A DNA stretch of 49,154 nucleotides from positions 1 to 49,154 of the forward strand of contig JAIPEE010000030.1 of the NCBI GenBank assembly GCA_021737275.1, written 5' to 3'. The translations under genes and the position numbers were made by a program. This DNA is from Desulfobacterales bacterium. Its GTDB lineage: Bacteria; Desulfobacterota; Desulfobacteria; Desulfobacterales; JAIPEE01. How positions within the stretch are numbered: position 1 is the stretch's first letter; the number at the start of each line of letters is the position of its first letter. Below the pieces are notes generated by a model. The model did no database searches. It was given only the letters and a program-made list of their open reading frames with translations, and was not told the origin of the DNA. Positions 1 through 16,748 of this stretch are shown in pieces.

Positions 1-1393
1 GTTTATGTGTTTCTAATATTTTTTTGGCCTTCTCGGTTGCATTTTGCAGCATCCCCTTCGATCCTTTCTTTTCCCATGCGCCTCGCATGCGTCTGTCAAT
101 GATCGTAGATTGTGCCTGCTCTTTTGCAATATGATTAAGGCTGTGCCGTTCGCCTAAAAAGTTTCCACCGATACCGATCTTTTTAATCAGGTCGACAGCC
201 ATAAGCTCATCATCAACGGATATGCCTGAAACCACCCGCTTAATCATGCCTGAAATTTCATCATCGATAACCAGCTGGCTCATGCAGAATGTCATGCCCA
301 TCTCAAGCATGCCTGCACCGTATATTAAGTTGGCGCCCGCCAGTGCGGGGAGAATGGCGGTTATCGTTTTTTCATGGCCGATCTGGACATCGGATATTTT
401 TGAATCAGCCTATCCGCCGGCTACATAACTCGGCAGTCCATAGTAGTTGGCAAGGTCTGATACGGCTGCACTGATCATACCCAACTCCGGAACGCCGACC
501 ACCGCTGTCCCCTGTCTCATATCAAACGTTGTTGTAGAGCTTCCATAAAGAAACGGTGTGCCGGGGTTAGTCATCTGTGCCAGTACAAGTCCGGCGAGAA
601 CCTCGGCGTTATGTGTAATGAGTGTGCCGGACAAAGGTAACGGGCTTGATGCACCACCCATGGCCATCGTTAAAACATCTATCGGGATCCTGTTTTTAGC
701 CGCCTCAATAATTACTTCACAGGCTTCTCCGATCAGTTGCAACGGGCTGGTTGGACAAACACAGAAAGATAGAATGGGTCTGCGCGCCAACGCCTCTTTA
801 CCTCCCACAGCCGCTGCCGCAATCTCGATTATTTTACGTGCATGGTTGCCGTCTTCCGCATCACTATGGTAATGTTTGGAGCCGTAGGTAAATGCAGCCG
901 CAGCCATATGAAGATCCTGGCTTTCATCCGGTTTTTCCCGTGGAGTAACAGGTGCGGTCAAAACATCGATATGCGGCAATGCATCTGTCAACAGTGCTAT
1001 ATCTTCCATGTCTTTTTGAGTTGAATCTCTCAACTCTCCTGTTTCCAGATCAATCATATAGATACCGACGCCAAAAGTCGTAATACCGACTTCCCTGCCG
1101 CCTGCTACAAAATCATTTTTGGGATCTCTTCCGGCTAATAATATCTGTTCAGGGCATTTTGAAATCGCATCGTTTACAATGTGCTGGGGAAATTTCACTA
1201 CCTGAGTCTCTTTATCTACCCGGCAACCGGCTTTATCTAAAATATCTAATGCCTCATCACAGGCCACAAGGATACCGACTGTCTCCATAACATCCAGTGT
1301 GGCGGCATGAATTTTTGAAAGCATGTCATCTGTAAATGATTTCAATCCCCATCCCGTTATTGAATCAGTTCCTGCTACAGGACCTTTTCTCAT
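1..1393 (-). CDS. mttB: Trimethylamine:corrinoid methyltransferase MttB with in-frame amber (pyrrolysine) codon, 3' end beyond window
   Basis: MttB moves a methyl group from trimethylamine to the Co(I) corrinoid of MttC in the cytoplasm. The start at 1393 follows an AAGGAGG ribosome site. The first 327 codons give an MttB-family N-terminal region, then codon 328 is TAG (410-412). The same frame stays open to the window edge (at least 136 further codons) and continues as ADSKISDVQIGHEKT and more, with later IDRRMRGAWEKKG, in keeping with an MttB C-terminal region. The amber sits just after LPSYVAGG, close to the place where archaeal MttB has pyrrolysine, and the total of at least 464 codons approaches the roughly 495 residues usual for MttB. 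I therefore read it as one UAG-decoded gene, not as a truncated gene. It lies 24 nt downstream of mttC in the same operon. The non-pyrrolysine homologue MtgB (glycine betaine) is unlikely because of the amber codon. Confidence 0.93.
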
Positions 1394-1417: not shown

Positions 1418-2068
1418 TTATACACCTAATATTTCGGCAATTTTCTGAGCGGCACTTGCCGCATCTTCGGCATATGCGTCTGCACCAATTTGATCAGCCC
1501 AGCCCTGGTTTACCGGTGCACCGCCAATGATTGTTTTATACTTATCCTTGAGGCCGGCTGCTTTCAGCTTATCTTCCAGATCCCGCTGTGCGCCCATGGT
1601 CGTTGTTAATAAAGCACTTGTTGCAATAACATCGGCATTATGTTCCTTTGCTTTATCAATAAAGGTATCAACGGGAACATCGCGCCCCAGATCAAAAACC
1701 TCAAACCCGTTGGCCGATAAAAAGGACTCTACAATACTTTTCCCAATATCATGGATATCGCCTTTAACGGTGCCAAGAATTACCGTGCCCCTGTTTGTCA
1801 CTTCATCCTTTGGAATGGACTGGTTACAAATTTCTGCGGCCGCTTTCATGGCATCTGCCGCCATTACGAGTTCCGGCAGATAAATTTTTTCATCTTCAAA
1901 CAATGCACCTATTTCTGTAATACCCGGCACAAAACCGTCACTTAATAATTCTCCAGCCGGTATCCCGCCTTCAATTGCCTGTGTTGCAATCTCTTTGGCT
2001 TTTTCTTTGTCACCGGTTATAACTGCTTTTTTTGCCTCTTTAAAAATAAATTCTTTCATCGAAATCAT
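1418..2068 (-). CDS. mttC: Trimethylamine corrinoid protein MttC
   Basis: This 216-residue methyl-carrying corrinoid protein would accept the methyl group from MttB and pass it to a corrinoid:tetrahydrofolate or coenzyme M methyltransferase, none of which is in the window. Residues 1-90 form the helical cap domain. The B12 Rossmann domain follows, with the cobalt-ligand motif D104-I-H106-D-I-G109, then SALLTTTM (about 151) and GGAPVNQ (182-188), all typical of the MtmC/MtbC/MttC family. The gene directly precedes mttB, which favours MttC over the dimethylamine or monomethylamine versions. Two starts are possible: ATG at 2068 has AAAGGA almost touching it, and ATG at 2059 has a more usual spacing and gives MKEFIFKEAKKAV. 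The phased repeats and leader element upstream suggest regulation by BTAD1. Confidence 0.93.
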   Translation of the reverse strand: MISMKEFIFKEAKKAVITGDKEKAKEIATQAIEGGIPAGELLSDGFVPGITEIGALFEDEKIYLPELVMAADAMKAAAEICNQSIPKDEVTNRGTVILGTVKGDIHDIGKSIVESFLSANGFEVFDLGRDVPVDTFIDKAKEHNADVIATSALLTTTMGAQRDLEDKLKAAGLKDKYKTIIGGAPVNQGWADQIGADAYAEDAASAAQKIAEILGV

Positions 2069-2160: not shown

Positions 2161-2256
2161 TACCTGAATCTGCTTCATATTCATAAAAAATACTTCTTTT
2201 TTGTTCAAGGATGAATATGGGAAGGGCGTAGGGCAAGGAGGAAGCAGATTCAGGTA
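2161..2256 (-). promoter_or_regulatory. Leader element E1, paired-arm structure upstream of mttC
   Basis: Perfect 16-bp inverted arms (TACCTGAATCTGCTTC at 2161-2176, its complement at 2241-2256) enclose a second perfect 9-bp inverted repeat (2176-2184 with 2211-2219). On the minus strand the 3' arm runs straight into a T run (2160-2155). The 5' side of the interior is pyrimidine-rich on the minus strand. The element is about 90 nt upstream of mttC and 310 nt after the BTAD1 stop. Three related elements occur in the window (E2, E3, E4). I read it as a 5' leader with a terminator-like fold; a terminator or a transposon-derived repeat is possible. Confidence 0.6.
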
Positions 2257-2401
2257 AAATTGTTTTATTTTTCACAATATTCATAAAAGCAATACTCAAT
2301 TACACAAAGCTAACTAATAGATTTTATAGTAATAAGAGAAAATTTCTTGTGATTTTTTATATAGATATGACATAATGAATTAATTTTTATGAAACATATG
2401 G

Positions 2402-2432
2402 CTAATTTTTGACTAATTTTTCGCTAATTTTT
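2402..2432. promoter_or_regulatory. Three CTAATTTTT direct repeats, 11-bp phased, candidate BTAD1 site
   Basis: CTAATTTTT occurs at 2402-2410, 2413-2421 and 2424-2432, exactly 11 bp apart (AAAAATTAG on the minus strand). On the minus strand, 10 bp after the last copy, is CATAAA, a fair -10. SARP-type activators with a BTAD domain are known to bind direct repeats phased at 11 bp or a multiple of it near the -35 region. The rest of 2257-2566 is AT-rich, with no gene seen. Confidence 0.55.
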
Positions 2433-2566
2433 AAACAAATATATAAAAAAACCACTTTTATTTATTCTTTAGATAGAAATAACGTATTAATATCGTTATC
2501 TTAAATACTATAATCGTATTTTAGCAGATTTTTTAAAGCGATTTAGATTAAACCGATTGAAACACC

Positions 2567-4762
2567 TTAAAACAGCTCTTCACTTTCCCACATACGGTGA
2601 GATGGAATTGCGCCCTGGATAAGGCGCTTCATCAGCTCCTGGGTCTTCACTTCAGGTTCTACGCTCAGATCATTTTGAAGCTTGTCGCACAATTTGTTAT
2701 ATACCTGTGTCAGCCCGCTTCGATTTCCGGAAAAGACAGTCGCCATAAACAGTAATCGATAACCGGTTTCACAATAAGGATCGGAAGCAATCATCTTTTG
2801 GGCAGATTGGTGCGCCTTATGATAATCTCCATTGTTAAGGTATAATCCGGTCGATTTAAATAAAGCATGTATCAGTTTTCTTTTAAGGATTTCCCGGGTT
2901 TCATTAATATCATCTTCATAGAGATCATTTATCAGAAAATCATCTTGGTAAAATGTTACAGCCTGCTCAAATGCGGCAAGAGCCTCCTGAGTGTTACCCT
3001 TTTGATATTGATTTTCACCCTGGAAAAAACTGTTTTCAAACTCATTTACATCGAGCCAGTAACCGCCTTTTATTAACCGGATAGAATCCGTCTCCGAAGA
3101 GATAAAGGAACGGTCTTTCCCGAATAATTTTCGAATTCGGGAAAGAAGCATATTTAAGTTATTTCGTGCCGACTCTGCTGAATAGCCATCCCAGAACCTG
3201 TCACAGACAATCTCTTTGGGAAGGCCTTTGTCTCGATTGACGATAATTAACTTCAACAGATTAATAAGCTTTTTCTGGCGCCCCAGCTGTACACTTGAAA
3301 TCTGACGGCCATTAATAAATATCTTCAGATTGCCAAAGGTGTAAATTTCAATGATATGATGCGTGGTCGAGCTGTTTTCTTCCCGAACCTTTTTCCGAAT
3401 CGGGCTTTCCCCACTTTCCGAACCCGGTATTGGCGCTTGATAGTATTGCCCCACAAAATTCTGGATGGCCTTGCTGTCGGACATATATGCGATCTCTTTC
3501 AGGACATCGATATTTATTATTTCCAGCTCTTCAATTTCATATGCCACCATCATTCTTTTCATAATATCAAAACATTTGATGGCTTTTGCCTCTTCTTTTG
3601 ATCTTATATATAATAGTCCCATCAGGGCCTGGGCTGTTGCAACTGCATGGGGAAACCTGTTTTCCGGGGTTTCATTGATCAGATTATTCAGTGTATTATA
3701 AGTCGCCTTAAAATCATTGATAAAAAGATTTGCCTCAGCAACATGCAGATAGGTAAGCGGGTACTCATACATATAAAACTTACTGTTTTCAGTCTGGCTC
3801 AACCGTTTACAATAATAATCCGTTTTAACCCTGTCTTCACCCAGGTATGATAGAAGCAGCTGCCCGAAAAGCATCACATAAATCCTGAACTCTGAATTGG
3901 GATCAGGATATTCATATAATATTTTATCAATAATCGCTTCACATGGTTCCAGGTTTTTTGTATAAAAATTACAGAACAGCTCAATCAGGCATAAATGGTA
4001 ATAAAATGCAGACCCTTTATCCAAACCGGCCTTTCCTTTTTCCGCCTCTTCCCGTGCTTCGGAGATAGACCTCATATAAAGGTATGTATTTGCTTTAAAC
4101 CATCGAACAAAGGGTTCATACATACGGTTGGCATTACTCATGGCAATGACCCGCTCTGCCTTTTCATATTGCGCCAGCGCCTTTTTAAACTTTCCAAGCT
4201 CCAGATAAAGACGCCCCAGGGCCATACGGGAAAATATCAGTGCCACTTCATCTTTCAGCTCAAGTGAAATCTCTTCGGCCTGCATGGCAATTTCAAACGC
4301 CCTGTCATATTCAAGAAATATCCACCACTTCCCAAGCTGTACCCATATTTTTAAAATTTTACGATATTCGTCTTTTAGATCAGATTCATGTTTTTCAATA
4401 AATTTCTGGGCTTTTTGGGTGAGTGTTAATAATTTATCGTTTGTCTCTTCATAATACATATAATTTATCAACAGTGTTGAATATATCAATGAGACACGAT
4501 CGTATGATTTTTTTTTATAAAAATATTCAATAAGTTCAAAAAATTTTTTACGGGTGGCAAAGGGCTCGATTAAATGAATGGAAACACAATGATAAAAAGA
4601 TAGAAGTGGTTTATCCTGTCTGTAGTCATTCGGAAAAAGCTCTATGCGCTGACGGACAAGGCTATATCTCCCTTCTCTTAAATACCGGCCGGCATCTTCA
4701 AGAAAACACTTTTCCGCTGCCGGATAGTCTCCTTTTTTTATGGCTTCTTCAAAGGTTATCAT
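2567..4762 (-). CDS. TPR / winged-helix / BTAD transcriptional regulator (BTAD1)
   Basis: This is a SARP-like regulator of 731 residues from the start chosen. Residues 1 to about 450 are helical and TPR-like, rich in Tyr/Leu/Ala (for example ALAQYEKAERV and ARLYLELGKF-type pairs). The winged helix starts near residue 475 (FGNLKIFINGRQI, then LPKEIVCDRFWDGY and NNLNMLLSRIRKLFG). It runs into a BTAD domain (YWLDVNEFE through LSVEPEVKTQELMKRL) and ends in a motif shared by all four paralogues, roughly PSxxMWExExL. This order is the reverse of classical SARPs, which have winged helix-BTAD first; no NTPase P-loop is present. The frame is open upstream to 4921, but ATG 4762 matches the other copies (M-x-x-FEEAIKKGDY); it lacks a clear ribosome site. 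Its likely targets are mttC and mttB. Confidence 0.85.
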   Translation of the reverse strand: MITFEEAIKKGDYPAAEKCFLEDAGRYLREGRYSLVRQRIELFPNDYRQDKPLLSFYHCVSIHLIEPFATRKKFFELIEYFYKKKSYDRVSLIYSTLLINYMYYEETNDKLLTLTQKAQKFIEKHESDLKDEYRKILKIWVQLGKWWIFLEYDRAFEIAMQAEEISLELKDEVALIFSRMALGRLYLELGKFKKALAQYEKAERVIAMSNANRMYEPFVRWFKANTYLYMRSISEAREEAEKGKAGLDKGSAFYYHLCLIELFCNFYTKNLEPCEAIIDKILYEYPDPNSEFRIYVMLFGQLLLSYLGEDRVKTDYYCKRLSQTENSKFYMYEYPLTYLHVAEANLFINDFKATYNTLNNLINETPENRFPHAVATAQALMGLLYIRSKEEAKAIKCFDIMKRMMVAYEIEELEIINIDVLKEIAYMSDSKAIQNFVGQYYQAPIPGSESGESPIRKKVREENSSTTHHIIEIYTFGNLKIFINGRQISSVQLGRQKKLINLLKLIIVNRDKGLPKEIVCDRFWDGYSAESARNNLNMLLSRIRKLFGKDRSFISSETDSIRLIKGGYWLDVNEFENSFFQGENQYQKGNTQEALAAFEQAVTFYQDDFLINDLYEDDINETREILKRKLIHALFKSTGLYLNNGDYHKAHQSAQKMIASDPYCETGYRLLFMATVFSGNRSGLTQVYNKLCDKLQNDLSVEPEVKTQELMKRLIQGAIPSHRMWESEELF

Positions 4763-4942
4763 TGGATAATTTATTTCAATTAAATCAAAATTTCGAAATG
4801 TTAGATATACAATAATATATATTGAATATCCGACTAACATAACACTGTTTTCTTGTTTCAGACAAGAAATTTTTCTAAAAGTGAGATGACAGAGGTGTGA
4901 ATCAGAAATTTTTTCGAGCAAAACGTTTTTCGTTACAAAAAA

Positions 4943-4971
4943 ATACCCCTCTGCTTTAAGCAGAGGGGTAT
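4943..4971 (-). terminator. Rho-independent terminator after SBP1
   Basis: A perfect palindrome with 14-bp arms (ATACCCCTCTGCTT) is followed on the minus strand by TTTTTTT. It ends SBP1 transcription, and separates SBP1 from BTAD1. Confidence 0.93.
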
Positions 4972-4990
4972 TGAATTTGAAAGTTACCCG

Positions 4991-6619
4991 TTATTGTGTT
5001 TTAGGATGCACATAGAAGTAACTGAATGGATTTATCCAGTTTGATACGCCGCCCATAACGGCAACATATCCTTCAAGTTTGTCTACTCGAACCGGATCTA
5101 TGATATCTTTTCGGGTAAGCACAAGATAAGGAATATCTCTGGACATGTAAAACTGCATTTTCTTTGAAAGCTCTATCCGCTTTGCCACATCAAGTTCTGC
5201 AGAATAGGCATTCAGCGCCTTATCAAAATCAGGATTATTATAACCTGCTGCATTCCATCCATAACCGCCATCATCGTAACTGCGCATAAATTCCCATACC
5301 CAGTCTGCATAGGGCCCCGGCTCTTCCATACCGAGCGCTATGTCAAAAAGTTTTTCATCCGGAACCCAGTAAATATTGGTATAAGTACCATAGTCGGTAA
5401 CATTCAGTTTAAGATTAATACCGATTTTCTTCATCATTTCACGAAGCAGTGTCGCCAATTTTACGTCATCAACACTATCTGATGGCACCAGGAAACGGTA
5501 GGACATATTCTTGCCGGTATCAGGCACATTACGGATATCATCTTCATCGGTATCAACATATCCGTTATCATCAAGCAATTTATTGGATAATTCCGGATTA
5601 AAAGGATACTTCGGCAACCGGTCATTATATTCCGGCAGTTCAGGATAGATAAAGCTGTCATGCGAAATTGCACCGCCATGATAAATCATTTTTACAAGAG
5701 TATCTCTGTCAATGCCATGGGCGATAGCCGTACGTACATTAAGGTCCTGCAGGCCATTTTCTTCCATGAAATTGTTAAAGGTAAGCCACTGCAGTGCAAT
5801 GCCGTCTGATTTTATGAGATCAATATCCGGATTATCCTTAAAATAGCGTTTGGCAAGTGTGCTGATACCGCCATACCCTAACATATCAATGTCACCCTTT
5901 TTAAGTGCCATGTTCATTGCATCTGAGCCGCCATATGATTTAAATGTAATTTTGTCGACCCTGGGCTCTTTATTCCAGTGGCCCTCATGCTTTTCAAATA
6001 TCATATACTGACCGGACTTGTAGTCTGCTAATTTGAAAGGACCGGAACCGATCGCTTTTTTATTTTCATTCTTGAGCATATCATACTTGTAGCGGCTCCA
6101 TAAATGCTTGGGAAAAACAGGAAACCAGTTAAAAGGCGGATATTTGCCACCAAACCGGTTTATCATAGTAAATTCCAACGTATGGTCATCAATGATAGTG
6201 AAACTGTCTTTATCCGTAATTGTATCACTATAGTTCCATTCAGGATCAGAATCCGGCAAATGTTTCATCGTAAAAGCGAAATCCTCAGCTGTCACCGGTT
6301 TGCCATCATGGAAAGTCATATCTTTCCGAATAAAAAATCTAAATGTTTTACGGTCCGCACTCTCATAACCCGTTATACCCCATGGTGCAAATTCATAATT
6401 CGGCGGTTCGCCCAATGTCCATATCGTATCATAAATCAGCTGCCAGAACATGCAACCCTGATTTTCCGTCTGCCAGGATGATCCCAATTGAAGTGATGAC
6501 AATGCCTGATCTGCATCCCATCCAACCCGAAGTTCACTTTGTGCCATGCTTACTGATGATACCATCAGTATAAAAGCAAGTGCGCACCCTAAAATAACAC
6601 CTGACTTTTTCTCTCTCAT
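4991..6619 (-). CDS. Periplasmic solute-binding protein, DppA/OppA-like (SBP1)
   Basis: A family 5 extracellular binding protein (cluster C) of 542 residues. A signal peptide (MREKKSG, then a hydrophobic core, cleavage near SMA-QSE) sends it to the periplasm; no lipobox Cys is seen. Family landmarks are FRFFIRKDMTFHDGKPVTAEDFAFT (about 95-120), AIGSGPFKLADYKSGQY and AIAHGIDRDTLVKM. The C terminus WINPFSYFYVHPK is shared with SBP2-4. It is rich in Trp and Tyr. No DppBC-like permease or ATPase is nearby, so it either works with a remote transporter or has a sensing role (inference). A purine-rich GGGGAAAAGGAAGGGG precedes ATG 6619. The E2 leader and BTAD2 lie upstream. Confidence 0.92.
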   Translation of the reverse strand: MREKKSGVILGCALAFILMVSSVSMAQSELRVGWDADQALSSLQLGSSWQTENQGCMFWQLIYDTIWTLGEPPNYEFAPWGITGYESADRKTFRFFIRKDMTFHDGKPVTAEDFAFTMKHLPDSDPEWNYSDTITDKDSFTIIDDHTLEFTMINRFGGKYPPFNWFPVFPKHLWSRYKYDMLKNENKKAIGSGPFKLADYKSGQYMIFEKHEGHWNKEPRVDKITFKSYGGSDAMNMALKKGDIDMLGYGGISTLAKRYFKDNPDIDLIKSDGIALQWLTFNNFMEENGLQDLNVRTAIAHGIDRDTLVKMIYHGGAISHDSFIYPELPEYNDRLPKYPFNPELSNKLLDDNGYVDTDEDDIRNVPDTGKNMSYRFLVPSDSVDDVKLATLLREMMKKIGINLKLNVTDYGTYTNIYWVPDEKLFDIALGMEEPGPYADWVWEFMRSYDDGGYGWNAAGYNNPDFDKALNAYSAELDVAKRIELSKKMQFYMSRDIPYLVLTRKDIIDPVRVDKLEGYVAVMGGVSNWINPFSYFYVHPKTQ

Positions 6620-6738
6620 TGTAATTTCCCCTTCCTTTTCCCCTTTATATTTATAACAAAATAATACCCGGCACAGCCCGACACCGCAGGCCTATGCCTT
6701 ACTATAAACTCTGATTTTTTGTGTGACGACAAAAAAAC

Positions 6739-6826
6739 ACCTGAACCTGCTTCTCGTCCTAAACTGTCCGAACGCATAAAAATCTCACTTTTTGGGGAAG
6801 AAGCGAGGTGAGAAGCAGATCCAGGT
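6739..6826 (-). promoter_or_regulatory. Leader element E2, paired-arm structure upstream of SBP1
   Basis: 17-nt arms: ACCTGAACCTGCTTCTC (6739-6755) and GAGAAGCAGATCCAGGT (6810-6826). Read as minus-strand RNA every position pairs, with two wobble pairs (G-U and U-G); read as plus-strand RNA the same two positions are A-C mismatches. The 3' arm runs into GTTTTTTTG on the minus strand. It lies 120 nt upstream of SBP1. Confidence 0.6.
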
Positions 6827-6934
6827 AAACTGAATATTGTGTTATAAACAGGCCCATTAATTTTGAATAGCCCCTTTAAAATACCCTGATTTTAATAATA
6901 TCTGTTATGAATACGAAATTATTGCACAGAAGAA

Positions 6935-6984
6935 CTATATGGGTATAATATTTGTCCTATATAGCTATAATATTTGTCCTATAT
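6935..6984. promoter_or_regulatory. 22-bp phased direct repeats, candidate BTAD2 site
   Basis: An identical 19-bp sequence (TATAATATTTGTCCTATAT) occurs at 6944-6962 and 6966-6984, exactly 22 bp apart. Its CTATAT core occurs a third time in the same phase at 6935-6940. On the minus strand the core contains AAATATTATA, resembling the AAAAATTAG and AAATATCAG units found after BTAD1 and BTAD3. It lies between the BTAD2 stop and leader E2. Confidence 0.55.
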
Positions 6985-7062
6985 TTTATTATGAATGGTT
7001 TTTGATCCCTTGCCTGATATTTCTTAATCTTAAAATTCAAAATCAAGCGTAAGAATGAAGCT

Positions 7063-7083
7063 CCCCGCCGCAAGCGGACGGGG
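7063..7083. repeat. GC-rich hairpin downstream of BTAD2
   Basis: CCCCGCCGC, AAG, CGGACGGGG forms a strong stem in an AT-rich spacer (6985-7190), without a T run on either side. It may be a REP-like element or a weak terminator for BTAD2. Nothing else is seen in the spacer. Confidence 0.45.
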
Positions 7084-7190
7084 TATAATAAATCTTAATA
7101 AAATCATGATAATTGAAAAATGAATAACTTTATCAGGTTATCCATTCGAAGTTTATTGAAACAAATGGATTATATAATGGAATGGTTTTC

Positions 7191-9389
7191 TTAAAGCAGT
7201 CTCTCACTATCCCACATGCGGCGGGACGGCATGGTGCCCGGTATAAGTTTCTCTATCAACTCCTTTGTCCGAATTTCCGGCTCAACAGCCAGGCCATGCT
7301 GAAGTTGCTCACACAACTTTTTATATATTCTCGGCAGCTCGGCCCGATTTCCGGATAAAACTGCTGAGATAAGTAAAAGGCGATATCCGGGCTCGCAATA
7401 CGGATCCGATACAAGTAATTTATCGGCACACTGATACGCTTTCTGATAATCACCATCATTCAGATGGATCCGGGTCATCTTGAACAGAGCCTGAATCAGT
7501 TTCCGTTTAAGATTTTCACGCTCTTCAATAATATTATCATCATACAAGTCAATTCCCAGAAAATCACCTTTATAAATACCGGCCGCTTCTTCAAATAGCT
7601 TAATCGCATCGGAAAAAGCCCCTTTTCGATAGAAGTGTTTGCCTTCATTAAAACAGTATTCGAATTCGTCGACATCAAGCCGGTATGCGCCTTTAATCAG
7701 TCGGATATATTCAGTTTCAGATGATATAAAGTTTATGTCTGCCCCTAATAACCGCCGAAGCCTGAGTACAAGCATATTTAAGTTATCGCGTGCAGATCTT
7801 GGTGAATAGCCTTCCCAAAAAGTATTATACGCCATCTCTTTAGGCAACCCCTTGTCACGATAAATAATCATGAGTTTAAAAAGGTGAAAAAGTTTCTTCT
7901 GCCGTTCCAGTTTAATTCCCGGGATCTGTTTACCATTAATAAAAACTTTCAGACTGCCTAATGTTAAAATTTCAATGGCATGGCCGGATCGGGCTTCAGG
8001 AGCTGTCGCTGTTTCTGAATTGTTGTCCCAGGGCCTGGGCCGTACAACCGGGTTCTGCTGCCTTGATTGATAATGATTAACAAAGTTATGGACAATTTTG
8101 CTGTGAGACTTTTGGGCTATTTTTTCCAGCAGAGAGATGTTCAGCACTTCCATCTCTTCAATATCATATTCAATCAGGATCCTGTCCATATGTTTAAAAC
8201 AGTTGGCAGCAGCAGCATTATCGCCGGTTCCGCTATATGCCATCCCCATCAATGCATACGATGTTGAAACCGCATAGGGGAATCTGCTTTCAGGTGCCTC
8301 TTTAATCAGGTTATCCAGTGTCGTCAAAACCACTTCAACGTTATTGATAAATAGGTTTGCCTCAGCAAAATGAAGATAGGTTAACGGGTAATCATATAAA
8401 AAAAACCTGGTGCTCTCTTTCTGACTCAGCCGGTTGCAGTAATATTCCGTTTTAACTTTATCGCCGCTGAGAAAAGAGGAGTTAAGCTGGCCAAAAAGCA
8501 TAACATATTTTCTGTAATCAGAATTCGGGTCCGGGTATTCACTTAACACTTTTTCGATGATGGACTCACATTGATCAAACTGCCCGATATTAAAAAAATT
8601 AAACATCTCGAGAAGATATAAGTGATAACAAAAAGGGGAACCTTTTTCCAGCGTCGCAAAACCCTTTTCAGTCTCTTGCTTTGTTTCTGCTGTCGCTCTC
8701 ATCCCAAGATATGTATCGGCCTGAAGATAATGAATAAACGGCAAATATATTGAGTTTGCAGGATTTTTATCAGCCACCCGCATCGCCTTTTCATGCTGAT
8801 CCAGTGATTGCTTAAATTTTCCCCGTTCACGATAAAGGCGACCCAGCGCAATCCGTGAAAAAATAAGAGCCGCCTCATCTTTAAGTTCAAGTGCAATCTC
8901 CTCTGCGTGCAGCGCAATTTCAAAGGCATGGTCATATTCCAGAAAAACCCACCATCTCCCCAGCTGAATCCAGGTATTTAAAATTTTAAAGGTGTGTGCT
9001 TCAAGGTCAATTTCATATTTTTCAACAAAGGATTGAATTTCCTGAACAAGCCTTAGAACCTTATCATCGCGCTCTTCATAATACATATAGTTGATCAGCA
9101 GAGTTGAATAGATCACGGCTACCCGGTGGTATGATTTTTGTTCGGAAAAAAGGGGAATTAATTCGAAGAGTATTTTACGGATGCCATATGGATCTATCAG
9201 ATGTGCTGAAAGACAGTAATAAAATGAAAGAAGGGCGTCAGCCTGCCGCTCCTTTTCCGGCAAAGCCTCATAACACTGGCGAATAGTTTTATACTTACCA
9301 TCGGCCAGCAACTGATCAGCCTCATCAGGAAATAGCTTCCGGATAGTTTTTTGGTTGTCACTATTTACAGCTTCTTCAAATGCGGTCAT
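7191..9389 (-). CDS. TPR / winged-helix / BTAD transcriptional regulator (BTAD2)
   Basis: A 732-residue paralogue of BTAD1. The N-terminal 460 residues are TPR-like helical repeats. A variable linker (RPRPWDNNSETATAPEARSG) leads into the winged helix (LGSLKVFINGKQIPG; LPKEMAYNTFWEGYSPRSARDNLNML). The BTAD follows (YRLDVDEFEYCF to LAVEPEIRTKELIEKL), and the protein ends PSRRMWDSERLL. ATG 9389 gives MTAFEEAVNSDN, the family's usual N terminus, with AAGAG upstream. No ligand-binding or NTPase domain is recognised. It is downstream of SBP2 (behind a terminator) and upstream of the phased repeats, E2 and SBP1, so SBP1 is the most likely target. Confidence 0.87.
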   Translation of the reverse strand: MTAFEEAVNSDNQKTIRKLFPDEADQLLADGKYKTIRQCYEALPEKERQADALLSFYYCLSAHLIDPYGIRKILFELIPLFSEQKSYHRVAVIYSTLLINYMYYEERDDKVLRLVQEIQSFVEKYEIDLEAHTFKILNTWIQLGRWWVFLEYDHAFEIALHAEEIALELKDEAALIFSRIALGRLYRERGKFKQSLDQHEKAMRVADKNPANSIYLPFIHYLQADTYLGMRATAETKQETEKGFATLEKGSPFCYHLYLLEMFNFFNIGQFDQCESIIEKVLSEYPDPNSDYRKYVMLFGQLNSSFLSGDKVKTEYYCNRLSQKESTRFFLYDYPLTYLHFAEANLFINNVEVVLTTLDNLIKEAPESRFPYAVSTSYALMGMAYSGTGDNAAAANCFKHMDRILIEYDIEEMEVLNISLLEKIAQKSHSKIVHNFVNHYQSRQQNPVVRPRPWDNNSETATAPEARSGHAIEILTLGSLKVFINGKQIPGIKLERQKKLFHLFKLMIIYRDKGLPKEMAYNTFWEGYSPRSARDNLNMLVLRLRRLLGADINFISSETEYIRLIKGAYRLDVDEFEYCFNEGKHFYRKGAFSDAIKLFEEAAGIYKGDFLGIDLYDDNIIEERENLKRKLIQALFKMTRIHLNDGDYQKAYQCADKLLVSDPYCEPGYRLLLISAVLSGNRAELPRIYKKLCEQLQHGLAVEPEIRTKELIEKLIPGTMPSRRMWDSERLL

Positions 9390-9539
9390 CTATAAAACTC
9401 TTAACATCAAAAGCTTTGGATTATCTTAAAATAATTTTGGGAATTTTTTTCTATAGCACTGTTCTTGTTATACACACAAGAGATATTCGATATGAAATTA
9501 TTGGGGGTGTGAAGAGATGATATTGAAAACAGAAAAAGA

Positions 9540-9576
9540 GATGGCCCAAAACCATTTTTTATGATCTTGGGCCATC
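9540..9576 (-). terminator. Terminator after SBP2
   Basis: Inverted arms GATGGCCCAA (9540-9549) and TTGGGCCATC (9567-9576) are followed on the minus strand by TCTTTTTC. The stop codon of SBP2 lies just upstream of it. Confidence 0.85.
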
Positions 9577-9607
9577 CTTATTGAAGAAAACAAGTCAACC
9601 GTTAATA

Positions 9608-11224
9608 TTATTTAGCGTGCACTTCAAAAAATGTCCATGGGTTAATCCAGTTGGAGATACCACCCATGGTTGAAACGTAACCCTGCAGTTTGTCGATCCT
9701 GACGGCGTTGATCACGTTCGGCCTTACGATCACATAGTAGGGCAGGTCGGTGGCCATGATCATCTGCATTTTCTTTGAAAGTTCGTTGCGTTCTTCAACA
9801 GATGTTGCCGTAGTATATGCATCAAGTACTTTGTCGAATTCCGCATTGTTATAACCGGACGTATTCCAGCCTTCACCGCCGTTGTCATAGCTGCGCATGA
9901 ATTCCCATATCCAGTCGGCATAGGGACCGGGCTCTTCTGCACCGAAAGCCATTTCAAACCGCTTCTCCGCAGGTGTATAATATATGTCATAATAGGTATC
10001 GAGATCAACGGAATTGACAACGATATCAATCCCGATCGGCTTCACCATCTCACGAATCATCTGGCCCATCTTGACAATCTCGATATTGGTTGAGAATGCG
10101 AGCAGGCGATATTCCATGTTCTCTCCCTTGTAATTACGGATGCCGTCGCCGTCCGTATCTACAAAACCGGCATCATCCAGAAGCTTGTTGGAGAGCGCCA
10201 CATCATACGCATATTGCGGAATTTCCGTGTTATAGTGTGAAAGTTCAGGATAGATGAAACCATCCTGTTCTGTAGCCTGATTATTAAAAATCAGTTTGAT
10301 TATTCTCTGTTTGTCAATGGCATGGACAATGGCCTGCCGAACGACTAGCTCATGCACACCGCGTTCTTCCATAAACATGTTAAACGTCAGCCAGTCCAGA
10401 GCAATACCGGGGTTGACTATCAGTTCAACGTCTTTTGCATCTTTAAAATTTTTCATGGCCAGCGGAGAGATACCTGTATAGCCATCCATATCAATCTCGC
10501 CCCGTTTCACCGCCATGTTCTGCGCATCTATACTACCGTATGATTTAAAAACAACCTTGTCCACACGTGGGCGTTTGTCCCAGTAACCTTCATGCTTTTC
10601 CATGACAATATACTGGCCCGGTTTAAATTCAGCCAGCTTGAACGGACCCGAACCGATGGCCTTCTCATTGGCATACTCCAGCATATTCTTTTTATAGGGG
10701 CTCCAGATATGTTCAGGCAAAATCGGCTGCCAGTTAAAGGGCGGATATTTGCCGCCATGCGTATGGTCCAGTTCAAATTCAAATGTTCTTTCATCAACAA
10801 TTACAAAACTGTCTTTGACCGCATGTGTATCCGGATAATCCCAGACCGGGTCCGATTCACGCAGATTTTCATAGGTAAAAGCAACATCCCTTGCGGTAAC
10901 CGGTTTACCGTCATGAAATGTCATGTTATCGCGAATCGTATACCGGTAATGAATGTTATCGTCGGTTTCAATCTTTTCCGCCGCCCGCATTACAAAGCCA
11001 TATCCCGGTGGTTTATCTAGCAACCATGCCTGATCATATACAATGGGCCAGAAAACACACCCCATAGTGGAATACTGCCAGCTTTCGCTGCAAACAAGAG
11101 ATTTAAGCATTTCATCCACCTGCCAGCCGACCCGCAGTACTGTTTCAGCAGAAGTAGCCGACGAAAAAACCAACATGAAAACGAGCAAACATCCCACAAT
11201 AATACTGACTTTCTTTTTTTTCAT
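9608..11224 (-). CDS. Periplasmic solute-binding protein, DppA/OppA-like (SBP2)
   Basis: This paralogue of SBP1 has 538 residues from ATG 11224. The frame is open to 11293, but that start would add a basic non-signal stretch. ATG 11224 sits behind a repeated GGAAAGGAAAGG and gives a proper signal peptide (MKKKKVSIIVGCLLVFMLVF, cleavage near TSA-ETV). Landmarks are MTFHDGKPVTARDVAFTYENL, AIGSGPFKLAEFKPGQY and VRQAIVHAIDKQRI; WINPWTFFEVHAK ends the protein. EEPGPYADWIWEFMRSYDNGG, present in related form in all copies, supplies several aromatics that could shape the ligand pocket (inference). It is downstream of FADox1 and leader E4, and again no membrane components accompany it. Confidence 0.92.
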   Translation of the reverse strand: MKKKKVSIIVGCLLVFMLVFSSATSAETVLRVGWQVDEMLKSLVCSESWQYSTMGCVFWPIVYDQAWLLDKPPGYGFVMRAAEKIETDDNIHYRYTIRDNMTFHDGKPVTARDVAFTYENLRESDPVWDYPDTHAVKDSFVIVDERTFEFELDHTHGGKYPPFNWQPILPEHIWSPYKKNMLEYANEKAIGSGPFKLAEFKPGQYIVMEKHEGYWDKRPRVDKVVFKSYGSIDAQNMAVKRGEIDMDGYTGISPLAMKNFKDAKDVELIVNPGIALDWLTFNMFMEERGVHELVVRQAIVHAIDKQRIIKLIFNNQATEQDGFIYPELSHYNTEIPQYAYDVALSNKLLDDAGFVDTDGDGIRNYKGENMEYRLLAFSTNIEIVKMGQMIREMVKPIGIDIVVNSVDLDTYYDIYYTPAEKRFEMAFGAEEPGPYADWIWEFMRSYDNGGEGWNTSGYNNAEFDKVLDAYTTATSVEERNELSKKMQMIMATDLPYYVIVRPNVINAVRIDKLQGYVSTMGGISNWINPWTFFEVHAK

Positions 11225-11347
11225 TTTTTTCTTTCCTTTCCTTTCCTTTCCCCTTTTTAATTTATAAAAATGAAAACTACCATAGCCGTGCAAAAACAGG
11301 GTGGTTTACTGCCGGATCATAGTCTTTCACGTAAAAGTGAGAAAAAA

Positions 11348-11433
11348 ATCCGGTCTGCATCTCTGTTTCGTACTGTTTTATCTTGAAATATTCAGATTTT
11401 TTTGAAAAAAATAAAATGAAAAACAGATCGGAC
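11348..11433 (-). promoter_or_regulatory. Leader element E4, degenerate paired-arm structure upstream of SBP2
   Basis: Arms ATCCGGTCTGC (11348-11358) and CAGATCGGAC (11424-11433) pair on the minus strand with one mismatch and a wobble. The outer part resembles E3 (TTGTCCG). The 3' arm runs into a T7 run. A perfect AT palindrome lies inside. It begins only about 28 nt after the FADox1 stop, so it could equally be the terminator of that gene. Confidence 0.45.
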
Positions 11434-11460
11434 AAGTTAAATGTTTACTTGAATATATAA

Positions 11461-12747
11461 TTATTGATACTTATCAATATATTTATAAATTTTGAGAATT
11501 ACAGGTACAAACCAGGGGTTGCCCTGATATAAAGGAATAGGCAGGGATCTTACCTGTCCAAACCTTGTATTAAGCCCTTTTCCCAATATACTGTCTGCCA
11601 GCTTGCACCCAAAATAGGTAGCCATGGCGACACCATGACCACAAAACCCCATGGCATAATCTATTCCGTTTCGTCGACCGATGATCGGAAAAAAATTGGC
11701 AGTAAAACCAACCTTGCCGTACCATGCATATTCAAGTGCATATTTTGCAAGTTCCGGGAAAACCTTGTAGAGCCCCTTTTGCAGGTTGTATGCTTTTTCC
11801 AGGGGGGATTTAAAGTAAAATTCCGGTCTTCCGCCAAGAAGTACGCGTTTTCGATCGGGTGAAAGACGGAAATAATAAAGCAGCCGCTTGGAGTCAAATA
11901 TCATGCGATTATTGGGAATCAGTTTCCTGATCAGGTCCGGGGGTAATTCCTCTGTAGCAATCATATAGCTTTCCATGGGAACAACTCGCCGCTGCTGCCA
12001 GGGTGTTAAGCCGGAGGTATAACCATTGGTGCAGACAGCAACGCGGTCTGCAATGATTGTCCCGCGTGAGGTTTTTACCTTAAAATTCCCATATGTTTTT
12101 TCAATTTTTTCAGCTTTAACGTCTTCATGCAGTTCCACACCGGCTTCATCAGCCATTCTGACCAGACCTGCTATATATTTCGCCGGATGGACACCGGCAC
12201 TGAGGGGGTCAACCAGTCCGCCATGGTAAAAGTCCGATCCGATTTCCTCCTGGAGATTTTCCCTTGTTATCAGCCGGGTTTTATGATTCAGATGCTTTAC
12301 TAAAAATTCCTGCTCATGTTTCAGGTAATCACAATGAGACGGTTTGAAGGCTACATACATGTGCCCGCACCGCTCAAAATGGCAATCAATGTCACCTTCC
12401 TGAATCAGCGATTCCACTTTGTCAATGGAGGCCAGGGATTCAGCAAACAAATCGCGGGCCATTTCCGCGCCGTATTTTTTAAAAACACTGCTCATACCCC
12501 GGCTCAATCCGGTCAGTACCATTCCACCATTTTTCGCGCTTCCCTCTGAGCCGATTTGCCCCTGATCCAGAACAGTCACATGCACGCCTGCTTTGCGCAG
12601 CGTCAATGCTGCCGTCATACCGGTATAACCGCTGCCGATAATCAACACATCTGTCTGAGTTGGAATCGTTTTATTCTTATATGATGTTGTGATGGGATGG
12701 GGCGTTACCCAGTAGGATTGTTCCTTTAACGAAATTGAAGCTGCCAT
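11461..12747 (-). CDS. FAD-dependent amine/amino acid oxidoreductase, DAO/PuuB-like (FADox1)
   Basis: A 428-residue flavoprotein of the DadA/glycine oxidase/gamma-glutamylputrescine oxidase (PuuB) group. The ADP-binding fold is at the N terminus (DVLIIGSGYTGMTAALTL, G38-x-G40-x-x-G43), with Asp61 ending the second strand and AKNGGM after it. The C-terminal FAD-contact region reads GRRNGIDYAMGFCGHGVAMA. SYWVTPHPI near the start resembles the S/Y-W-x-x motif seen before the FAD fold in PuuB-like enzymes. It would oxidise a C-N bond; the substrate is unknown, though N-methylated amines or polyamines suit the context. ATG 12747 has GAGGTGA upstream. A TetR-type palindrome lies in its promoter. 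AH1 is upstream on the same strand. Confidence 0.85.
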   Translation of the reverse strand: MAASISLKEQSYWVTPHPITTSYKNKTIPTQTDVLIIGSGYTGMTAALTLRKAGVHVTVLDQGQIGSEGSAKNGGMVLTGLSRGMSSVFKKYGAEMARDLFAESLASIDKVESLIQEGDIDCHFERCGHMYVAFKPSHCDYLKHEQEFLVKHLNHKTRLITRENLQEEIGSDFYHGGLVDPLSAGVHPAKYIAGLVRMADEAGVELHEDVKAEKIEKTYGNFKVKTSRGTIIADRVAVCTNGYTSGLTPWQQRRVVPMESYMIATEELPPDLIRKLIPNNRMIFDSKRLLYYFRLSPDRKRVLLGGRPEFYFKSPLEKAYNLQKGLYKVFPELAKYALEYAWYGKVGFTANFFPIIGRRNGIDYAMGFCGHGVAMATYFGCKLADSILGKGLNTRFGQVRSLPIPLYQGNPWFVPVILKIYKYIDKYQ

Positions 12748-12774
12748 GGTGTCACCTCAGATGAGTTCCGTGTT

Positions 12775-12822
12775 TTATTAACACAATGTTTAATAATTGG
12801 ATGAACGGCACTTATTTGTCAA
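12775..12822 (-). promoter_or_regulatory. FADox1 promoter with TetR-type palindrome
   Basis: A 22-bp palindrome spans 12775-12796, with the minus-strand core TTAAACATTGTGTTAA. It matches the TAAACA-TGTTTA boxes at SDH2 and SDH3. TTGACA lies upstream on the minus strand (12822-12817), with an AATTAT-type -10 about 18 bp further on, next to the palindrome. Confidence 0.6.
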
Positions 12823-12895
12823 GGAAAATTTGTTTTTCATAATAACCATAGGCCCTTAACCGGCATTAAAATAATTATTGTTTGAAGTTAAGCTT

Positions 12896-14638
12896 TTATA
12901 TAACAGCAGAATATACTTTTCTACCTTCAAAATACGTCATTACTATCCTGGTTTCAGGAATTTCCTCAACATCAATATCAAAAATATTCCGGTCCAGCAC
13001 AACAAGGTCGGCCAGTTTACCTTGCTCAATTGATCCCAGATCCTTTTCAAGGAAATTGGCATAGGCGCCATTTATGGTGGCGGCCTCGACCAGCTCTTCA
13101 ATATTAGACATTTCTCTTTTGGGCGGCAGTACACCCATTTGGGTATTGTCGTTCAGCTTAACATCAGGATCTGTAATGCGAACATAATCCGGATAGTCCG
13201 CCTGTATTTTCTTAAACTCATTTTCAGGAAGGCATCGCTTAATACCTTTATAAAAGGCATTCATTAAATCCGGCTCAGATACGCCATAATCACTATGAAT
13301 GGCTACATTTAAACCGGCATCAAAAAGGCTTTGCATCGGATACTGGTTATTTACCCGGGCCCATCCAAGGTATTCGGAATCAAGGCTCCAGTAATAATCT
13401 TCAACAACAGCCCAATAGGGAGCAATAATCGCATTTATATTCAGGGTTTTCATTCTTTTCACATCTTCCGGCTGAATCAGCTGAATATGTGCAAACGAAT
13501 GGCGTGCATCTCTGTTGCCATTAGCAGCCACTGCACATTCAAGTGCATCCAGTGCATATTTTGCTGCACCATCACCAATCTGATGGATATGAATCTGAAA
13601 ACCTTCGGCATCAACTACCGTAAATGCTTTTTTCAACGTTTCATCATCCCAGACTTTTAAACCATAAAAATTGTCTTCCCTGTGAGAATATGGCTCCAGC
13701 AGAAAGGCGGTTTCTTCTTCAACAACCTGATCGACAAAAAATTTAAACGAATGGATCTGCCAGTAATCTGACTTAAACTGTCTGGACAACTCAAGTCCTT
13801 TTTCTATCTGCTCATGATAATCTTTTTCTGAGTCCACATACCATGATCCCCTGTATCGAATTGTCAGCAGGCCCTCTTCTGCCAGCTCGTTATAAGCCTG
13901 ATAATAGGCAGGTGAATCTGTCGGGACCCATGCATCATGACAGGTTGTCAAGCCAACCATATTAAACTTTTTCTGAAGCTTGAGCAGTGCCGTTTTATAC
14001 TGTTCAATTGTATTTTCAGGCAGCAGTTTATCTACAAGCGACATAGCGCCGGGTTCCTGCAGCAGGCCGGTAGGATCTCCGGTTTCAGGGTCCTTCACAA
14101 TGATACCGTTTTGCGGATTGGGTGTATCTTTTGTGATACCGGCCATCTCAAGTGCTTTTGAATTTACCCAGAGGGAATGAAAGTCTCCGGACCATATCGC
14201 AATGATCCGTTCCGAATCGATTTCATCAAGATCCTCTTTTCTGGGACCGATTTCATCATATATTGATCTTAAAAAACCGGCACCCTTTATGGCTTGCAAT
14301 TCCGGGTGGTCAGCAGCAAACGTCTTTATTTTGACCAGTGAATCTTCATGGGTAAACACATCTGTTAAATCCACATTGGCCAGAAGCAGAATGGCACACA
14401 TGGCCGGATGCATATGGCTGTCAACAAAAGCAGGCAGCAGAAGCTTTCCTTCCAGATCTATGACTTCAGTATCTTTGCCTGCCAGGGCACCTGCATCTTC
14501 GTTGCAGCCGACAAAAATAATTCGTTTGTCCTTTACCGCGATTGCCTCTGCAATGGGTGTGTTTTTATCAACGGTATAAACCTTGCCATTTTTGAAAACC
14601 AGGTCTGCAGGGCCTGAGAAAATTTCCTTACTTGACAT
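12896..14638 (-). CDS. YtcJ-like metal-dependent amidohydrolase (AH1)
   Basis: A 580-residue amidohydrolase-superfamily enzyme of the YtcJ/N-substituted formamide deformylase type. The small beta domain (ADLVFKNGKVYTVDK) leads into the barrel with the metal pair H75-x-H77 in FVDSHMHPAM. Later ligands are in IHIHQIGDGAAKYALDALE, RHSFAHIQL and AIHSDYGVSEPD. The C-terminal part returns to the composite domain (GKLADLVVLDRNIFDIDVEEIP). It would hydrolyse an amide or formamide C-N bond; the substrate is not evident. ATG 14638 has AGGAGG 5 nt upstream and matches the start of AH2; the frame extends to 14674 without support. It is followed 148 nt on by FADox1. Confidence 0.88.
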   Translation of the reverse strand: MSSKEIFSGPADLVFKNGKVYTVDKNTPIAEAIAVKDKRIIFVGCNEDAGALAGKDTEVIDLEGKLLLPAFVDSHMHPAMCAILLLANVDLTDVFTHEDSLVKIKTFAADHPELQAIKGAGFLRSIYDEIGPRKEDLDEIDSERIIAIWSGDFHSLWVNSKALEMAGITKDTPNPQNGIIVKDPETGDPTGLLQEPGAMSLVDKLLPENTIEQYKTALLKLQKKFNMVGLTTCHDAWVPTDSPAYYQAYNELAEEGLLTIRYRGSWYVDSEKDYHEQIEKGLELSRQFKSDYWQIHSFKFFVDQVVEEETAFLLEPYSHREDNFYGLKVWDDETLKKAFTVVDAEGFQIHIHQIGDGAAKYALDALECAVAANGNRDARHSFAHIQLIQPEDVKRMKTLNINAIIAPYWAVVEDYYWSLDSEYLGWARVNNQYPMQSLFDAGLNVAIHSDYGVSEPDLMNAFYKGIKRCLPENEFKKIQADYPDYVRITDPDVKLNDNTQMGVLPPKREMSNIEELVEAATINGAYANFLEKDLGSIEQGKLADLVVLDRNIFDIDVEEIPETRIVMTYFEGRKVYSAVI

Positions 14639-14716
14639 TACGCCTCCTGAGTTACAATTGACAAATTCTAACACTTTCCTGATTGAATCAAATAATTATT
14701 TAAATAGTTATCATCA

Positions 14717-14738
14717 TATAACTAAACATTGTTATATT
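14717..14738 (-). promoter_or_regulatory. TetR-type palindrome upstream of AH1
   Basis: ATATAAC and GTTATAT flank TAAACATT in a perfect inverted repeat whose centre TAAACATTGTT resembles the SDH2/SDH3 boxes. It lies about 80 bp upstream of AH1. No convincing -35/-10 pair was found. Confidence 0.4.
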
Positions 14739-14770
14739 AAAACAGCAATGTTTGCAAATCATAAAAAAGA

Positions 14771-14801
14771 CACATCACCGACTCTTAAGAGAAGTGATGT
14801 G
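14771..14801 (-). terminator. Terminator after SBP3
   Basis: CACATCAC (14771-14778) and GTGATGTG (14794-14801) form the stem, with an inner TCTTAAGAGA. The minus strand continues TCTTTTTTAT. Confidence 0.88.
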
Positions 14802-14827
14802 CCTTACCTCAAATATTCTACAAGTTT

Positions 14828-16450
14828 TTATTTTTCATGGACAAAATAATATGTATTCGGATTAATCCAATTGGATACACCGCCCATAGTAGAAACATAA
14901 CCATCCAGCTTGTCTGTTCGAACCGGTGCAATGTGGTCCGGTCGAAAGAGTACATAATGCGGCAAATCTTCAGCCATGGTCTTCTGAAGCTTCCAGCTCA
15001 ATTCTTTACGCTTTTCCATATCATCTTCAGCGCTAAAACCATCGATAACCTTATCCAGTTCCGGATTGTTGTAAAATGCCGTATTCCATCCGGCACCACC
15101 ACCATCGATACTTCTCATAAATTCCCAGACCCATCCGGCATAAGGGCCCGGCTCTTCAAAACCAAAAGCCAGGTCGAAACTATTGCCTGCGGGATAGTAA
15201 TATAGGTCATAATAGGTATCCTGATCGACAACATTAAGCTCGATGTCGATACCGATATCCTTGAGCATCTCTCGCATCAATGTCCCCGTTTTAACCAGCT
15301 CAACCATTTCCGATGCAATGAGCAGTTTAAGCCTGATCTTTTCGCCCGTTGCCGGATCTTCCCTTAATCCGTCGCCATCCGTATCTTTATACCCTGCCTC
15401 TTTCAGCATTTTACCGGCTAGTTCGACGTCATAATTGTATTTAGGCAAATCGGGATTGTAATGTTCAAGCTCAGGATAAACAAAGCTGTCGTGTACTTTT
15501 GCAAATCCATGGTAAACCATCTTTACAATACGATCTTTATTAATCGCATGCGCGATGGCCTTCCTGACTCTAAGATCCTGAATCGGACCGGTCGGGTGCA
15601 GGTTGTATGTCAGCCAAATCAGGGAAATGCCCGGGTTAACCAACACATCAATATTTGGATCTTTCTCATAGTATTTTTTTACTATTGGAGAAGCGGATGT
15701 GTAACCCAGCATATCAATTTCACCATGTCTGAGCGCCATATTCATGGCATCATTACCGCCATAGGATTTGAATACGATCTGATCAACACGTGGTGATTTA
15801 TCCCAGTGTTCTTCAAATTTTTCAAATACGATATATTTGCCGGAACTGAATTCCTTCAGTTTGAATGGACCGGAGCCAATGGCCTTTTTGTTGCTGTATT
15901 CACCCAATTTAAATTTGTATCTTTTCCAGAGAGACTTCGGCAGAATCGGATAATAATTAAAGGGTACATATTTATCGCCCAGTTTCTGCTTTAACTCAAA
16001 CTCAACAGTACGGTCATCAATTATCACAATTGAATCTTCAACAGTTTGTGAATCGTTGTAGCTATAGGTCGGTTCACTGATCGGCAGATATGTCATTGTA
16101 AAAGCCAGATCATCTGCAGTCACAGGCTTACCATCATGAAAGGTCATACCCTCACGAAGCCTGAATCGCCATTTGATACGGTCTTCTGTTTCAAAACTTT
16201 CAACCGCCCAAGGTTTCAGATTATACGCCGGCGCTGAATCCAGCATCCATAATTGGTCATACACAACCTGCCAGAACATACATCCCTGGGTTTCATACTG
16301 CCATGAACTGCTGCAATTTAATGAATCCAGCATTTCGGCTGAATACCATCCTACCCTCAGCTGTCCACCTGCAAAACCTGATGTTGAAATCAGCATCACA
16401 ATTGCCAGTGCAGATAACCCTGCATAAAACTTTTTAAATTTTTTGTTCAT
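14828..16450 (-). CDS. Periplasmic solute-binding protein, DppA/OppA-like (SBP3)
   Basis: A third copy of the binding protein, 540 residues. Its signal peptide is MNKKFKKFYAGLSALAIVML with cleavage near GFA-GGQ. Family landmarks are FRLREGMTFHDGKPVTADD, AIGSGPFKLKEFSSGKY and VRKAIAHAINKDRIVKM; it ends WINPNTYYFVHEK. It keeps the shared aromatic motif GPYAGWVWEFMRS. ATG 16450 follows AGGGAGA. The E3 leader ends about 32 nt before the gene, and BTAD3 lies upstream of that. No transporter membrane subunits are present. Substrate unknown. Confidence 0.92.
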   Translation of the reverse strand: MNKKFKKFYAGLSALAIVMLISTSGFAGGQLRVGWYSAEMLDSLNCSSSWQYETQGCMFWQVVYDQLWMLDSAPAYNLKPWAVESFETEDRIKWRFRLREGMTFHDGKPVTADDLAFTMTYLPISEPTYSYNDSQTVEDSIVIIDDRTVEFELKQKLGDKYVPFNYYPILPKSLWKRYKFKLGEYSNKKAIGSGPFKLKEFSSGKYIVFEKFEEHWDKSPRVDQIVFKSYGGNDAMNMALRHGEIDMLGYTSASPIVKKYYEKDPNIDVLVNPGISLIWLTYNLHPTGPIQDLRVRKAIAHAINKDRIVKMVYHGFAKVHDSFVYPELEHYNPDLPKYNYDVELAGKMLKEAGYKDTDGDGLREDPATGEKIRLKLLIASEMVELVKTGTLMREMLKDIGIDIELNVVDQDTYYDLYYYPAGNSFDLAFGFEEPGPYAGWVWEFMRSIDGGGAGWNTAFYNNPELDKVIDGFSAEDDMEKRKELSWKLQKTMAEDLPHYVLFRPDHIAPVRTDKLDGYVSTMGGVSNWINPNTYYFVHEK

Positions 16451-16481
16451 TTTTATCTCCCTTATTTAATCCGGTTTAAAA

Positions 16482-16570
16482 TGTCCGAATCTGCTTCACT
16501 TCGAGATATTGTTTAGGGTAACAATTCATCCTCGGATAGGGGATAATGAGAGGAGAAGCAGATCCGGACA
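16482..16570 (-). promoter_or_regulatory. Leader element E3, paired-arm structure upstream of SBP3
   Basis: Arms TGTCCGAATCTGCTTC (16482-16497) and GAAGCAGATCCGGACA (16555-16570). Compared with E1, three base pairs differ on both sides (compensatory), and one position is a G-U wobble only if the minus strand is the RNA. An inner hairpin ATTGTT/AACAAT is present. The minus strand ends in ATTTT. The ribosome site of SBP3 follows closely. Confidence 0.6.
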
Positions 16571-16710
16571 AGATGCAAATATGGTGTTATTTTTAATATT
16601 CTGCAAAAGGCTGTACAAATCCCGCATTTACTTTTTAATTTTGCTTATATGAAAAAGCCATATCCACACCTGAAATCACCATATTTTAAATATTTTACAT
16701 GCAGGTCGCA

Positions 16711-16748
16711 GATCTCCATGAGATCAGACTGATATTTAACTGATATTT
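16711..16748. promoter_or_regulatory. 11-bp phased repeat and palindrome between BTAD3 and E3
   Basis: CTGATATTT occurs at 16729-16737 and 16740-16748, exactly 11 bp apart (AAATATCAG on the minus strand). A perfect palindrome GATCTC-CAT-GAGATC (16711-16725) abuts it. No good -10 is seen at the 10-bp spacing noted elsewhere. Confidence 0.45.

Follow-up and report, generated by a model that had tools for sequence, protein, structure and literature searches.

Terminator-like hairpins with long loops in the predicted leaders of SARP-like regulator modules from an uncultured Desulfobacterales bacterium

The 5' stabilising stem-loops of abundant mRNAs are represented by the ompA type, and riboswitches are represented by the cis-regulatory families of Rfam. 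The loop of mapped intrinsic terminators has a median length of 4 nt, and stem-loops longer than 59 nt are beyond the limit of the usual predictor (PMC12207403). In SARP promoters, the direct repeats are spaced 11 or 22 bp apart, and the -10 element is located 8 bp behind them (PMC10936776). The four related elements analysed here, E1 to E4, show likeness to these systems and also differences from them. They are located in the window, that is, the whole analysed stretch of 49,154 nucleotides.

The elements are found among minus-strand genes (Table 1). In minus-strand order, the first block consists of regulator C, direct repeats, E3, the binding-protein gene SBP_C, an amidohydrolase gene, an FAD oxidoreductase gene, E4, SBP_B, and a terminator. 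The second block consists of regulator B, repeats, E2, SBP_A, and a terminator, and the third of regulator A, repeats, E1, the corrinoid-protein gene, and mttB. The order proposed in the initial annotation, BTAD gene, phased repeats, element, and target gene, is correct for E1, E2, and E3. Regulators A, B, and C are TPR proteins with a C-terminal BTAD domain, the domain search having been run on A. The sequence identities among the regulators and among the binding proteins indicate that the cluster probably originated by tandem duplication of SBP-regulator modules. The region of the in-frame TAG codon of mttB (313-412, minus strand) matches PYLIS_3 with 82.5 bits, and the bacterium is pyrrolysine-encoding.

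Eight TPR-BTAD regulators were found in this genome. Outside of it, one close relative was found, and it is located before a polyamine-type transporter. The fourth BTAD regulator in the window, designated D, precedes isochorismatase, arginase-family, and carbon-nitrogen hydrolase genes (36330-38684 and 33695-36183), and its operon is probably responsible for guanidino/agmatine-type catabolism. The same catabolic cluster includes a histone-deacetylase-family gene (42486-43673), which perhaps encodes an acetylpolyamine amidohydrolase.

Table 1. Positions of the elements, repeats, terminators, and genes in the window.
Feature	Position	Strand	Description
E1	2161..2256	-	Arms 2241-2256 (5') and 2161-2176 (3'); 64-nt loop; T6 (2155-2160); in the predicted leader before the corrinoid-protein gene and mttB
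E2	6738..6827	-	Arms 6812-6827 (5') and 6738-6753 (3'); 58-nt loop; T7 at 6731-6737; leader of the binding-protein gene SBP_A
E3	16482..16570	-	Arms 16555-16570 (5') and 16482-16497 (3'); 57-nt loop; T4 only, 16478-16481
E4	11348..11433	-	Degenerate copy, flanked by the oxidoreductase gene and SBP_B; then T7
Direct repeats upstream of E1	2400..2432	-	Three repeats AAAAATTAGNN, 11-bp spacing; SARP-like site; p<0.005 against shuffles
Direct repeats upstream of E2	6935..6985	-	22-bp spacing; ATAGGAC, ATAGGAC, ATAGTTC, then 8 bp, AATAAT
Direct repeats upstream of E3	16719..16747	-	AAATATCAG, 11-bp spacing; p<0.005
Regulator A	2567..4762	-	TPR repeats and C-terminal BTAD domain (domain search)
Regulator B	7191..9389	-	55% identical to A
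Regulator C	16801..18966	-	47% identical to B
Corrinoid protein	1418..2068	-	Methyltransferase-cognate, MtbC/MttC type; TIGR02370 above cut-off; target behind E1
mttB	2..1393	-	Trimethylamine methyltransferase; TIGR02369; in-frame TAG (pyrrolysine) 410-412; cut by contig end
SBP_A	4991..6619	-	Family-5 solute-binding protein; behind E2
SBP_B	9608..11224	-	Behind E4; 55% identical to SBP_A
SBP_C	14828..16450	-	Behind E3; 54% identical to SBP_A
Terminator after SBP_A	4942..4972	-	Short-loop intrinsic terminator; ordinary, contrast case
Terminator after SBP_B	9539..9577	-	Short-loop intrinsic terminator; ordinary, contrast case

Direct repeats with 11-bp spacing were recognized behind regulators A, C, D, C8, and C87 and behind the regulator of the related genome, and repeats with 22-bp spacing behind regulator B. 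No phased repeats were found behind regulators C34 and C76. Besides the sites in Table 1, such repeats are present at 36245-36273 in the window and at the loci L044, L046, and L020. A candidate -10 hexamer fits by eye 8 bp past the last repeat in B (AATAAT) and D (TATAAG), and C showed no clear fit. A BTAD regulator gene adjoining 11- or 22-bp direct repeats, with a -10-like hexamer shortly behind, is the arrangement of the SARP/AfsR-type promoters of actinomycetes. By this analogy, SARP-like operators would exist outside actinomycetes: the repeats between the TPR-BTAD genes and their target operons are candidates for them in six modules here and one in the relative. In contrast to the actinomycete systems, the BTAD domain here is C-terminal after a long TPR region, the targets are catabolic, and the host is a Desulfobacterales-like bacterium. 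SARP promoters have been described without a hairpin, and the E hairpin is an extra part here.

In the D and C8 modules, the distance from the repeats to the start of the target gene is about 57-115 nt, and thus the promoter must be close downstream of the repeats. Judged from the SARP rule and these sister loci, E1, E2, and E3 would be about 85-130 nt inside the predicted transcript, and their position downstream of SARP-spaced repeats would locate them in transcribed 5' leaders. The sister modules D, C8, and C87 and the module of the relative have phased repeats, but neither they nor the remaining modules have an E element in the covariance-model search. E is thus an addition to the regulator-repeat-target module, confined to this cluster. 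The leader of E3 also includes, just before the element, a 10-bp perfect inverted repeat, AAATATGGTG / CACCATATTT (16660-16675 and 16578-16590), which was not seen in the leaders of E1 and E2.

Both strands of the window were scanned for 16-pair dyads that enclose 30-110 nt and contain at least five G-C pairs, with G-U pairs allowed. Exactly three mismatch-free dyads were revealed on the minus strand, and they are E1, E2, and E3, with arms of 16 bp each and whole stem-loops of 90-96 nt. E1 is also mismatch-free on the plus strand, where E2 and E3 carry two mismatches and one, respectively; E4 carries two on the minus strand and is missing from the plus-strand list. The minus-strand RNA folds of E1 to E3 reach -30 to -38 kcal/mol, with z-scores of -5.7, -4.7, and -6.6 against dinucleotide shuffles, and the fold of E4 (z -1.1) is not significant alone. 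A covariance model was trained on E1 to E3 with E4 left out, and it recovered E4 with E=0.02 from the entire 4.26-Mb genome; apart from E1 to E4, only noise and the complementary strands of E1 and E2 were reported. The exact arm pattern is present at three sites in the genome, E1, E2, and E3, and relaxing the pattern gave one more site, which was taken as chance. E1, E2, and E3 are real and E4 is a decayed copy, as they had initially been described.

The arms are nearly identical between copies, and the loops and flanks (upstream 100 nt, downstream 40-100 nt) are no more similar than shuffled sequences, with the exception of the upstream flanks of E2 and E3, whose similarity exceeds that of shuffles (z 2.8). 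Standard pairs are observed in 48 of 48 pair cells of E1 to E3, compared with 27-42% in slid controls. When the observed transitions are placed randomly, the Watson-Crick count has a p-value of 0.007 for E1/E3 and 0.002 for E2/E3. Pair-by-pair comparison confirmed two earlier claims. Between E1 and E3, three base pairs are altered on both sides, a number reached by 18 of 500 shuffles too. The wobbles favour minus-strand RNA: all four G-U pairs of E1 to E3 are minus-strand wobbles and none is a plus-strand wobble, every non-Watson-Crick position being a minus-strand G-U, and since two of the four are at one shared position, they represent at most three events. The outer arm type of E4 is that of E3, and the outer arm type of E2 is that of E1; the three double changes may therefore be one split between an E1/E2 type and an E3/E4 type, which makes the evidence weaker than it appears. 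Compensated arm changes could equally arise in a DNA inverted repeat, and the compensation counts from three sequences are support for pairing, not proof. The conservation of the arm sequence exceeds the needs of pairing; the inner 9 bp are conserved, and the inner ATCTGCTTC is unchanged in both arms of E1 and E3.

The 3' arms had been noted to run into T residues, and this is true for E1 (T6), E2 (G and T7), and E4 (T7), on the minus strand only, while E3 has only T4. A T6 at a given intergenic minus-strand position has a p-value of 0.006. The tail scores of the four elements (3.0-4.7) resemble those of the two ordinary terminators in the window (2.8 and 4.0). A stable stem with a U tract at once behind it, on the gene strand and in the interval between promoter and gene, is shared with attenuators and intrinsic terminators, the tail of E3 being weak. 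In contrast to them, the E elements have loops of 57-64 nt, where about 4 nt is usual, exceed 59 nt as stem-loops, and have conserved arm sequences, and the short-loop terminator scan of the window did not report them. The antiterminator search revealed no competing pairing common to the leaders of E1, E2, and E3. The 5' part of the loops of E1 to E3 is C/U-rich, at levels seen at about 0.1-0.7% of window positions, and it could slow stem closure or bind a factor. The distance from the end of the E3 stem to the ATG of SBP_C is 31 nt. Pairing of the loop with the ribosome-binding site was rejected as a general feature, as it was observed only for E3 (z -3.65) and for a simple T/A tract of E4.

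The dyad, the strand bias, the arm conservation, the U tracts, and the position behind the repeats are directly seen, and the single orientation and the position before genes and, for E1 to E3, behind a predicted activator-type promoter agree with the initial annotation of the elements as minus-strand 5' leaders with a terminator-like end. We infer the transcription start, termination itself, and any control of it. The tentative explanation ranked first is that the elements are cis-acting terminator-like RNA hairpins in minus-strand 5' leaders, or between two genes in the case of E4, which act as attenuators. The local TPR-BTAD activator would bind the phased repeats, and transcription would begin just past them. 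After passing about 85-130 nt, RNA polymerase would reach the element, where a stem of 16-18 bp would shut over the long, 5'-pyrimidine-rich loop, with the U tract next. Owing to the stem and the U tract, a fraction of polymerases may stop, as at an attenuator. This would lower the leak from the upstream regulator gene and tune a very abundant product, the binding protein or the corrinoid protein.

Against attenuation, the loop and stem-loop lengths are beyond the usual terminator range, the E3 tail is short, the three leaders have no antiterminator in common, the arms are conserved beyond pairing needs, and there are only four copies in one tandem cluster. The main rival, which is rather unlikely but has to be taken seriously, is a stem for stabilisation or processing: a nuclease would cut the AU-rich stretch upstream, the hairpin would then protect the 5' end of mRNAs for abundant proteins, and in the case of E4 SBP_B would become uncoupled from the preceding genes. 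Binding proteins and corrinoid proteins are usually abundant, and all four downstream genes encode such protein types. AU-rich sequence precedes every element, the upstream flanks of E2 and E3 are similar, and the location inside the predicted leader is suitable; as with ompA-type stems, the leader of an abundant product contains a strong stem. It differs from them in its distance into the predicted leader and in its U tract, and this reading would explain neither the conservation of the inner 9 bp nor why three of four copies have a T tract at the base of the stem. Ranked next, and improbable, is a DNA operator, in which a protein would bind by looping to two inverted 15-bp sites about 73 bp apart (80 bp in E1). 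The invariant inner sequence of both arms in E1 and E3 and the equal 73-bp spacing of E2 and E3 are consistent with it, and coupled changes are possible in paired DNA sites too, but on the helix the 80 bp of E1 are out of phase with the 73 bp of E2 and E3, the T tract is one-sided, and the non-Watson-Crick positions are all G-U on the minus strand. Single sites show no genome-wide excess; as operators elsewhere in the genome, single arms were rejected, with one perfect match outside the cluster, about the chance number. Single E arms are also not palindromic, unlike the dyad at 21236-21345. There, palindrome copies ATCCGAATATCGGAT and ATCCGATATTAGGAT, 94 bp apart, are located just before an Lrp/AsnC-type regulator gene, and they are a likely DNA operator for autoregulation.

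The suggestion of a switchable, perhaps ligand-responsive terminator was not supported. Such a riboswitch is very improbable, even with a leader position before transporter and methylamine genes and a terminator-like end, which the elements share with riboswitches. The loops, which would have to carry an aptamer conserved in sequence and structure, are the least conserved part and no more alike than shuffles, and no alternative pairing or switch common to the leaders was found. The initial view that they correspond to no known riboswitch was upheld, as no Rfam family reaches its gathering score on the elements. E3 has a weak SAM-III match (20.4 bits, the cut-off being 45; E=1.1 in a 12-kb search) that is absent from E1 and E2, and the identity was rejected because the score is far below threshold. 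No feature of the elements indicates a ligand. A mobile repeat such as a MITE or REP is the least probable of all and hardly credible. The 16-bp terminal inverted repeats around about 60 bp look like one, but the check for scattered or both-strand copies found none: the four copies lie in one orientation before genes in one 15-kb cluster, with none elsewhere in 4.26 Mb, they have no common internal sequence, and they track the tandem duplication of the SBP-regulator modules.

In 291 genomes from the order and 257 from the phylum, the class-level sample consisting of genomes of the order only, the covariance model revealed no convincing second occurrence. Two weak matches outside the genome were rejected, one within a coding gene (G147) and the other overlapping the 5' end of an ORF (G221). 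The exact arm pattern in 389 genomes gave matches at the estimated chance level and one tandem repeat. No E element was recognized by eye in the upstream regions of SBP homologues from eight other genomes (one of these regions consisting of N), and the covariance model found nothing convincing at all ten SBP homologue loci. Other long inverted repeats (GGCCACCAAGACACGAAG... and CGTTCCCGGGCTTCTGCTTGGGAATGC...) precede SBP homologues in two genomes (L070 and L072), and they resemble common dispersed repeats. From viral contigs, 54 stretches with the pattern were found and rejected; their number is of the order of estimated chance, on rescoring with the covariance model the best reach 28.5 bits compared with 93-98 for E1 to E3, and three of them lack the U tract. 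E is probably a lineage-specific regulatory leader; the family of this organism consists of this genome alone, so lineage restriction is inseparable from missing relatives.

E is a variant of the leader hairpin, a known kind of element, and is of modest interest unless termination with a 60-nt loop or a controlling factor holds. It is doubtful, although conceivable, that these elements represent a new class of leader RNA: a terminator-like hairpin in which the loop is long and pyrimidine-rich in its 5' part and the arms are conserved in sequence, controlled by a protein or RNA, as a second layer under SARP-like activators of methylamine and transport genes. If the stems terminate, loops of about 60 nt, which the usual predictor excludes, would be compatible with intrinsic termination or attenuation, and SARP-like activation outside actinomycetes could carry attenuation as a further layer. 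If they do not terminate, the locus of this uncultured bacterium still represents a clear series of regulator-repeat-target modules that serve trimethylamine (pyrrolysine) and transport genes.
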